Source of the DNA: Thermococcus piezophilus
GTDB lineage: Archaea; Methanobacteriota_B; Thermococci; Thermococcales; Thermococcaceae
Assembly: GCF_001647085.1 (NCBI RefSeq)
Contig: NZ_CP015520.1
Span: forward strand, 1,570,219-1,634,218
Length of the DNA stretch: 64,000 nucleotides
Direction: 5' to 3'
Shown: positions 3,551-39,998 of the stretch, piece by piece
How positions within the stretch are numbered: position 1 is the stretch's first letter
Layout: every line of letters starts with the position of its first letter
Program-made: the position numbers and the translations under genes
The notes under the pieces: model-generated
Told to the model about the DNA's origin: nothing
Databases searched by the model: none
What the model saw: the letters and a program-made list of their open reading frames with translations, nothing else

Positions 3551-3628
3551 AGCGGGGTGGGGCAGCTAGGAGTGCCCGCCGGGCTCATAACCCGGAGGTC
3601 GGAGGTTCAAATCCTCCCCCCGCTACCA
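3551..3628 (+). tRNA. Initiator tRNA-Met (CAU)
   Basis: A complete cloverleaf. The acceptor stem AGCGGGG (3551-3557) pairs with CCCCGCT (3618-3624), then a discriminator A and an encoded CCA (3626-3628). The anticodon loop CTCATAA carries CAT. The anticodon stem has three consecutive G:C pairs (GGG/CCC) next to the loop and the acceptor ends in A1:U72; both are established marks of archaeal initiator tRNA and distinguish it from elongator tRNA-Met. The T arm contains GGTTCAAATCC. Confidence 0.97.
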
Positions 3629-11391: not shown

Positions 11392-11417
11392 TCTTTCACC
11401 TCCAAACAGGGAAGACA

Positions 11418-11474
11418 TCAGCGAAGCGAAGATTCCTCATTGCTCCAGCTCGGGTGTCCTCGGCTTCATCATTT
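11418..11474 (-). ncRNA. C/D-box guide RNA overlapping a stop codon, minus strand
   Basis: On the minus strand: C box ATGATGA (11472-11466), 12-base guide AGCCGAGGACAC, D'-like CCGA (11453-11450), C' box ATGAGGA (11440-11434), 12-base guide ATCTTCGCTTCG, and D box CTGA (11421-11418). The C box contains the TGA stop of the upstream DUF2666 gene, an arrangement known for archaeal sRNAs. The D' box differs from CTGA by one base. Predicted methylation sites are the C in GUGUC*CUCGGCU and the G in CGAAG*CGAAGAU. The RNA would be released from the DUF2666-ridA transcript or transcribed on its own; no clear TATA is visible. Confidence 0.68.
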
Positions 11475-12257
11475 CTTCTCCAGGTACTTCTCTAGGTTCT
11501 TTGCCGGGACGTCGAGCGGGAGGCTTATCTTCTCCAGGGCCTTCCTAAGGGCATAAACCTCTGCGTGTTTCTCAAAGCCACTCGGTGCGTAATTCTCGGC
11601 CGGGAAGTGCTTGTACTTCTCAACTACAGCGGGAATCTCGGCCTTTTTAACTTTCTTGAATTCCCCGAACCAAGCATCTATACCATCCAGGTCTATCCCA
11701 GCGTAGATTGGAAGTTTGAGCGTTATCGTCTCGTTTATGCTCGCCAGGATTCTGGCGACATCCGCCATAGGAGTCTTATCGTCTATCATGAGCCTCTTCA
11801 CGACTATCCACCTGCCGTGCTTGGCCGTGAAGTTGATGTGGTCTTCGTTGAAGGGGAGGACGATTTTGACTTCCTTCAGGGGCTCTTCGGGGTAGTCGAT
11901 GGAAACCTTCTTGGCCAGAGCCGCTCTAACGAGAATTGCCTTGGCTACCTCAACTAGGTGCTTCTTCAGCTTCTTATCTTCCTCGAAGACAAGGGTGCCA
12001 AGCTTTCTTGCCGTTCCTGAGGACTTAAGGGCCATTATAGTATCATTCAGGTCCTTTTTGGCTATCTCCTCGGCGAGGCTCATTATTCCCGCGATGTTCA
12101 TGACTTCCGTTAGATACTCGGCTATCTTGAAGTTCACGGTGTTGGCAATGCTCGCGAGAAAGTGGGCAATACTCTCGTTGTCCATATCGAGGAGTCGGTC
12201 TCCTACCTTCCAGCTTCCGTGACGAGCCGTAAAGATAATCTGATCCTCAACTTTCAT
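11469..12257 (-). CDS. DUF2666 domain protein (Thermococcales family)
   Basis: A 262-residue protein with two internally related halves. Each half contains a FTARHGSW/FTAKHGRW motif (near residues 9 and 145), followed by a helix with LASIANTV or LASINETI. This duplicated layout is that of DUF2666, whose function is not known. There is no signal peptide or membrane segment. The ATG at 12257 has GGTGAGAGCA upstream. Its stop codon is embedded in the C box of the guide RNA that follows. Confidence 0.75.
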   Translation of the reverse strand: MKVEDQIIFTARHGSWKVGDRLLDMDNESIAHFLASIANTVNFKIAEYLTEVMNIAGIMSLAEEIAKKDLNDTIMALKSSGTARKLGTLVFEEDKKLKKHLVEVAKAILVRAALAKKVSIDYPEEPLKEVKIVLPFNEDHINFTAKHGRWIVVKRLMIDDKTPMADVARILASINETITLKLPIYAGIDLDGIDAWFGEFKKVKKAEIPAVVEKYKHFPAENYAPSGFEKHAEVYALRKALEKISLPLDVPAKNLEKYLEKK

Positions 12258-32552: not shown

Positions 32553-32633
32553 AAATAACCACCAGTTATTGACTGTAGTCTTCTGGGTTATAAGTTTTGT
32601 CCAGAGCACCGTTTTACGGTTTAGAAGAGGGTG

Positions 32634-32801
32634 GAAAAGCTGTGGGCCGGCGACAGAGGCCCGCGTTCATTCGCTCGCGCGGGTGGATGCACCGGCCTTG
32701 TGGGCTCGGCGTGAGCACAGCCCCCTCACCCAACCCGACGCGTTGGGGGTGCGGGTTCGTCCGAGCCCCACGAGGGTACGATTGTACCCTCGCTGTCGGC
32801 A
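32634..32801 (-). ncRNA. H/ACA-type guide RNA, two hairpins with ACA boxes, minus strand
   Basis: A GC-rich stretch in an AT-rich gap. On the minus strand, GGGCTCGG...CCGAGCCC closes a long hairpin followed at once by ACA (32701-32699). Then GGCCGG...CCGGCC closes a second hairpin, again followed by an ACA box (32643-32641) and a TTTT run. The second hairpin has an inner CCCGCG/CGCGGG stem with a loop holding GA and TGA, as expected for the kink-turn that binds L7Ae, and an internal loop suited to be a pseudouridylation pocket. A further 9-bp stem (GAGGGTAC core) lies at the 5' end. TTTTTAAGG at about 32822-32830 gives a promoter at the right distance. Confidence 0.7.
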
Positions 32802-39800: not shown

Positions 39801-39835
39801 GCTTTCACCAGAAAAAGTTGGGGGAAGTCCTTAAA

Positions 39836-39998
39836 AATGTGGGCTTGGCTGATCCCCCGCCTTCATTGAAAGCCGGAAGGCGGTCTCGAGCGGTCCGGAG
39901 GCCAAGCCCTGTTCGCTCGGCCGTCCACCGTGCTCACAGCATCCCCTCGGGAAGCTCCCACGGCCGGGCTGCCGAGCGGCGTCGGATGCTTACTCGTT
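39836..39998 (-). ncRNA. H/ACA-type guide RNA, two hairpins with ACA boxes, minus strand
   Basis: On the minus strand, CGCTCGGC...GCCGAGCG (8 bp) closes hairpin I, followed by A and an ACA box (about 39912-39910). Hairpin I has an inner CCGTG/CACGG stem and, above it, GGA opposite TGTGA, a good kink-turn for L7Ae. Hairpin II is closed by GGGCTTGGC...GCCAAGCCC (9 bp), followed directly by ACA (39840-39838) and TTTTT. It contains a CCGCCTTC/GAAGGCGG inner stem and an internal loop. A TATA-like CTTAAAATT centred near 40022, with CCGAAAC upstream, lies about 26 bases before the start. This explains the GC-rich gap between translin and mat. Confidence 0.8.

Follow-up and report, generated by a model that had tools for sequence, protein, structure and literature searches.

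A conserved 5' arm of the archaeal H/ACA guide RNA HgcF is complementary to 23S rRNA beside Ψ2603: a candidate third rRNA-binding unit

Why should an H/ACA guide RNA with two productive guides begin with an extra 5' hairpin? The question is raised by a minus-strand locus of Thermococcus piezophilus, lying in a 64-kb stretch of its genome (the whole stretch analysed, hereafter the window; Table 1). The RNA itself is not new. By its sequence it is HgcF (Pab35), an already known archaeal H/ACA pseudouridylation guide; its full-length match to the Rfam family, which exceeds the gathering score of 70 bits, rules out a novel RNA, and the 5' hairpin and the two guides are likewise already known. The first-pass annotation had seen here an RNA of H/ACA type, with one more hairpin at its 5' end, that might be composite or less known. 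The description stands, but the RNA is not a less-known one, and the hairpin is already inside the Rfam model. The limits first drawn (32801-32634) were near correct, the start being most likely 32800 and the Rfam match extending to 32630. One orthologue, at contig positions 318231-318398, has the coordinates of P. abyssi Pab35 (PMC4652768), and pseudouridylation activity of the P. abyssi Pab35 RNP is reported in literature that the paper cites.

Table 1. Features of the HgcF locus and other RNA genes of the window (window positions; nt, position in HgcF)
Feature	Positions	Strand	Remarks
HgcF (Pab35), whole RNA	32630..32800	-	Rfam RF00058, 118.5 bits, E 1.8e-26, model 1-168 of 168
TATA box TTTTTAA	32824..32830	-	T in 89/90 and A in 88/90 orthologues
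5' arm GCCGACAGCGAGG, nt 1-13	32788..32800	-	antisense to 23S 2591-2603 (P. abyssi 2590-2602), 13/13 Watson-Crick
Toehold GCCGACA, nt 1-7	32794..32800	-	unpaired in free RNA; 99.5% mean conservation
5' hairpin, nt 8-17 with nt 22-31	32770..32793	-	tetraloop AAUC in this genome; 88/88 readable orthologues
Invariant ACA, nt 16-18	32783..32785	-	A 90/90, C 89/90, A 89/90
H/ACA hairpin H1	about 32702..32768	-	compensatory changes in lower stem
H1 3' guide GCUCACG, nt 85-91	32716-32710	-	target 23S U2673 = P. abyssi L2672
ACA box of H1	32699..32701	-	spacing 15 in 90/90 orthologues
H/ACA hairpin H2, putative GA...UGA kink-loop	about 32644..32697	-	compensatory changes in lower stem
H2 3' guide CUCUGU, nt 143-148	32658-32653	-	target 23S U2550 = P. 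abyssi L2549
ACA box of H2	32641..32643	-	spacing 15 in 87/89 orthologues, 14 in two
HgcE (Pab105), second H/ACA sRNA, 7 kb away	39821-39945	-	RF00060, 69.1 bits
C/D box sRNA sR45	11416-11476	-	RF01274, 69.1 bits
tRNA gene	3551-3625	+	63 bits; anticodon-loop CAU by eye

The T. piezophilus genome holds a single HgcF copy, which rules out an extra copy or a dual locus. Among the Thermococcales, HgcF was found in 91 of the 94 genomes searched and in 74/74 of the good assemblies, the three genomes without a match being 75-85% complete; none of the 21 other genomes of the phylum that were searched has it. Weak second RF00058 matches occur in three relatives about 7 kb off, where HgcE stands in this window; HgcE is probably the RNA that the first-pass annotation had counted as its first H/ACA RNA. 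The neighbours of HgcF, both on the same strand, are an EamA transporter gene upstream (retained in 70/90 loci) and an HTH-CBS gene downstream (65/90). Structure prediction and covariation, the checks proposed at the outset, both agree with a structured RNA. The predicted fold (−87.7 kcal/mol, against −73 ± 4.3 for shuffles; z −3.4) is better than those of all 200 shuffled sequences, and compensatory changes, whose lack had been named as grounds for abandoning the reading, occur in the stems across about 90 orthologues.

The guides of the two classical hairpins match published targets. Both minus-strand stems that had been recognized as ending in ACA are present, with the ACA 14-15 nt from the pocket top as is the rule for archaeal H/ACA RNAs, and compensatory changes among 90 sequences fall in the lower stems at pairs 5 (T-A/C-G), 6 (C-G/T-A) and 7 (G-C/C-G) of H1 and at pairs 4 and 5 of H2. 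By sequence, both have putative kink elements: UGA is 99% conserved in H1, and the GA and TGA already noticed in one loop are those of H2. The bulged CCCCC/GGGGG helix of the first hairpin, which had seemed atypical, is this lineage's version of the normal H1 upper stem. Read directly from the organism's own 23S rRNA, CGTGAGC-U2673 lies opposite the H1 guide and ACAGAG-U2550 opposite the H2 guide; its numbering is that of P. abyssi plus one at both sites, where Pa35.1 and Pa35.2 have L2672 and L2549 as their published targets (PMC4652768). The methods of that paper give three motifs for Pab35 and two for Pab40; this is likely a slip, since the opposite assignment would agree with the total of 11 motifs stated there and with the name Pa40.3. 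Within H1, the 5' guide stretch AACCCG (32757-32752, minus strand) can pair with CGGGTT (32738-32733, minus strand) in its own apical loop, crossing the upper stem, and the Rfam model shows this pairing. It is possibly an alternative fold that blocks the H1 guide; orthologues with a short loop do not have it.

The 5' hairpin is present as first annotated, namely a perfect 9-bp stem (CGAGGGTAC/AATC/GTACCCTCG, 32792-32771 on the minus strand) that a G.U pair extends to 10 bp. What was overlooked is that the 5' strand of this hairpin, together with the 7 nt before it, is antisense to 23S rRNA, and that an ACA follows; the statement that the hairpin has no ACA box cannot be kept, since an invariant ACA lies inside it (32785-32783). 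Nothing else in HgcF matches rRNA as well as the antisense stretch, nt 1-13, which we call the arm; its target falls between the two known sites. On the P. abyssi 23S itself the target is 2590-2602, with L2549 41 nt before its start and L2672 70 nt beyond its end. The arm-rRNA score is 36, against a maximum of 33.5 in 200 shuffled rRNAs, and the 13-nt target was found 0 times in 3000 simulated rRNAs of the same dinucleotide make-up. Nevertheless, 13-nt stretches antisense to rRNA occur in 11 different places of the 64-kb window; the arm match alone therefore proves little, and it is the comparative data that carry the case. In HgcE and sR45, a search for similarly long antisense stretches gave only interrupted or wobble-rich matches. 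Matches to CCTCGATGTCGGCTC in six Thermococcales lie in protein-coding sequence, not in 23S. A C/D box guide was also rejected, as the orthologue alignment has no C (RUGAUGA) or D (CUGA) boxes around the antisense.

Among the 88 readable orthologues, 87 keep all 13 arm-23S pairs, G.U included: the pairing is Watson-Crick throughout in 46, includes one or two G.U pairs in 41 and has a terminal mismatch in one. On a tree made from the rest of HgcF and its flanks, which shares the locus and thus yields approximate counts, 25 of the 26 changes placed in nt 1-13 preserve pairing with 23S. Opposite a 23S G, C becomes T (nt 9); opposite U, A becomes G (nt 7 and 11). An arm G that faces a 23S C stays the same (nt 1 changes once), and the changes fall on its hairpin partner instead. 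At nt 8 there are 0 changes in the arm vs 10 in the hairpin partner, and T/G transversions are found at nt 15, outside the arm-23S helix. Double changes keep the hairpin itself at nt 9 (C-G/T-A) and nt 15 (T-A/G-C). The toehold, nt 1-7, has 0-2 changes per site, and its mean conservation (99.5%) compares with 99.2/99.4% for the 3' guides of H1/H2 and with 82% for the other strand of the hairpin. The conserved 5' block stops exactly at the ACA (nt 16-18), which is kept in Pyrococcus too, where it is only loop. Taken across the orthologues, the sequences make the arm-23S pairing well supported.

Some observations count against the model set out below. All the Thermococcales checked have the same 23S target, so that the arm changes face no changing partner. 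The target reads GCUG in Thermococcales and GAUG in the archaeal LSU consensus, and the arm has a G to match; since C is found in related classes too, this is not independent covariation. Position 2596 of the organism's own 23S is C where the archaeal consensus is A, and the C is common to other members of the class; we take 2596 to be the position of E. coli A2503. One MAG (locus L092, on contig 7 of genome G066) has H1 and H2 without the arm, the TATA box standing directly before H1; the arm can therefore be lost. An intact arm was not found elsewhere in that genome, which is 74% complete.

The arm target ends beside a known pseudouridine. The next base is U2604 here, which is U2603 in P. 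abyssi; Ψ2603 of P. abyssi equals Ψ2607 of T. kodakarensis, and Ψ2588 and the orphan Ψ2585 are nearby (PMC6138745). The spacing of 2585/2588/2603 agrees with uridines 2586/2589/2604 in the organism's own 23S. In vivo, Ψ2603 depends on Cbf5 and Gar1 and is independent of Nop10, and a deep search by the authors found no guide for it (PMC6138745). In vitro, Cbf5-Gar1 makes Ψ2603 on a 22-nt 23S fragment without guide RNA (PMC6138745), and the arm is thus not strictly needed for catalysis. In the Rfam archaeal LSU structure, H90 is formed by 2600-2610 and 2665-2675 of the organism's own numbering, with pairs U2604-A2670 and G2601-U2673, so that one strand of H90 is taken by the arm and the other by the H1 guides. 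In H1, in H2 and in the arm, the ACA is 15 nt away from the nucleotide that faces U-1. Since archaeal H/ACA RNAs have their ACA at 14-15 nt (PMC4652768), the arm-rRNA helix could replace the 3' guide and lower stem of a pocket. The arm thus combines an ACA at a spacing of 15 with a 3'-guide-like antisense stretch beside a known pseudouridine, U2604. It has no upper stem, kink-turn or two-sided pocket; all that is present is a hairpin of 7-11 bp, which overlaps with the antisense strand. As a 5' guide for the orphan Ψ2585 the arm was rejected, nt 14-16 being unpaired with 2590-2588; a search for a canonical Ψ2585 guide (GGTAG...AGCCTC...ACA) gave scattered, mostly unshared matches and no H/ACA-like gene.

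We lean, by a little, towards reading the 5' hairpin as a third rRNA-binding unit of toehold type, which opens H90, presents U2603 and is possibly a minimal half-guide as well. H1 and H2 guide Cbf5 to U2673 and U2550 of 23S. In the free RNA, nt 1-7 would be a single-stranded toehold, with nt 8-17, including most of the ACA, locked in the hairpin. Once the toehold had found 23S 2597-2603, exchange of strands along nt 8-13 (6 pairs) would open the hairpin and complete a 13-bp helix with 2591-2603. The predicted energies at 37 °C are −27.4 kcal/mol for the arm-23S duplex and −17.6 for the hairpin; at 85 °C they are −9.7 and −5.2, respectively. The arm helix would then occupy the 5' strand of H90 and thereby, we propose, free the H1 target in the other strand. 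The ACA at nt 16-18 would be left exposed, 15 nt from U2604, and the uridine might be presented either to Cbf5-Gar1 held by the ACA, as on the 3' strand of a pocket without an upper stem, or to free Cbf5-Gar1. Strand exchange, the opening of H90 and any role of the ACA are steps that we infer.

The scheme puts the RNA's 5' end at the first nucleotide of the arm. Besides the TATA box, the upstream region has TA at about −10/−9 (32811-32810), with A at −9 in 86/90 orthologues, and a pyrimidine at 32801 (T/C in 89/90) followed by a purine at 32800 (G in 87/90); the spacer between these elements is poorly conserved across the columns of the 90 orthologues. From these elements, transcription most likely starts at 32800. 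Against this, RNA-seq of P. abyssi puts the 5' end of HgcF 4 nt farther upstream than the promoter elements do (PMC4652768).

The closest alternative, to which we give somewhat less than an even chance, is that the arm docks without guiding any modification: it would hold 23S 2591-2603, keep HgcF near the catalytic centre and H90 open for H1 (and H2), the ACA-like triplet being otherwise used, for example in the loop. It agrees with the placing of arm and H1 on the two different strands of H90, with the closeness of the two known targets (within about 120 nt) and with the fact that Ψ2603 needs no RNA in vitro (PMC6138745). By itself, however, it explains neither the invariance of the ACA in Pyrococcus, a plain loop there, nor why the arm spacing equals that of H1 and H2.

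The spacing of 15 and a conserved block that stops exactly at the ACA speak for a further reading, in which arm and ACA together form a minimal guide for U2603 and stand in for the 3' guide and for the 3' strand of the lower stem. With no upper stem, such a guide would need neither Nop10 nor L7Ae, and in vivo Cbf5 and Gar1 are required and Nop10 is not (PMC6138745). The guide-free activity of Cbf5-Gar1 in vitro speaks against it, as does the lack of any precedent found for a guide without an upper stem, and we consider this version rather less likely than not. Equally doubtful, to our minds, is its corollary that the 'guide-independent' Ψ2603 is guide-assisted in the cell by an undescribed minimal guide in HgcF.

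Could the hairpin be a mere cap that protects or folds the RNA, the 23S match being coincidental? The hairpin is itself conserved and covarying, and chance 13-nt rRNA matches do occur in a window of such size. But a cap has no need for seven unpaired invariant bases ahead of it, and would explain neither why changes are confined to those keeping 23S pairing nor why the match ends beside a known pseudouridine; we consider it improbable. Least likely is a relic of a third classical H/ACA hairpin that lost its 5' half: the ACA is at the correct distance and HgcG carries three motifs in the same species (PMC4652768), yet every lineage has its inferred start at nt 1 and the 5' block has not decayed, whereas relics should drift.

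Having set out these alternatives, we would note why a toehold-type rRNA-binding unit matters. Ψ2603 is the cited rRNA case of archaeal Cbf5 acting without guide RNA, and Ψ2585, a few bases away, is still without a guide. A conserved arm ending flush at Ψ2603 makes the guide question testable by one small deletion. If the reading is true, a guide RNA would open a catalytic-centre helix by gripping both of its strands, and the definition of an H/ACA guide would be widened.

How does this compare with known systems? Family RF00058 is the same RNA, with the same two H/ACA hairpins and targets and with the hairpin in its structure. In the published descriptions consulted, however, HgcF/Pab35 has two productive guides, and neither the 23S complementarity nor an ACA in the 5' part is mentioned; prior notice elsewhere is possible. 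Eukaryotic snoRNAs, e.g. snR30, have extra rRNA base pairing and folding roles. HgcF resembles them as a guide RNA with an added antisense contact near its targets, but it is archaeal, and its arm is 5'-terminal and hidden in a hairpin with a free toehold. With the canonical archaeal pocket (the 10/5/9 and 10/6/9 families; PMC4652768) the arm shares the spacing of 15, but not the upper stem, kink-turn, 5' guide or lower-stem 5' strand, for which the rRNA would substitute. The Pyrobaculum H/ACA-like guides (PMC4652768) do without a full lower stem and have, like the arm, the ACA at the canonical distance; they keep the upper stem, and the HgcF arm is the reverse case. Finally, guide-independent action of Cbf5-Gar1 on U2603 (PMC6138745) involves the same uridine and the same proteins as the arm model. 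It relies on a T-arm-like 23S fold and no sRNA, whereas the pairing partner of the arm would be the 5' side of this fold.
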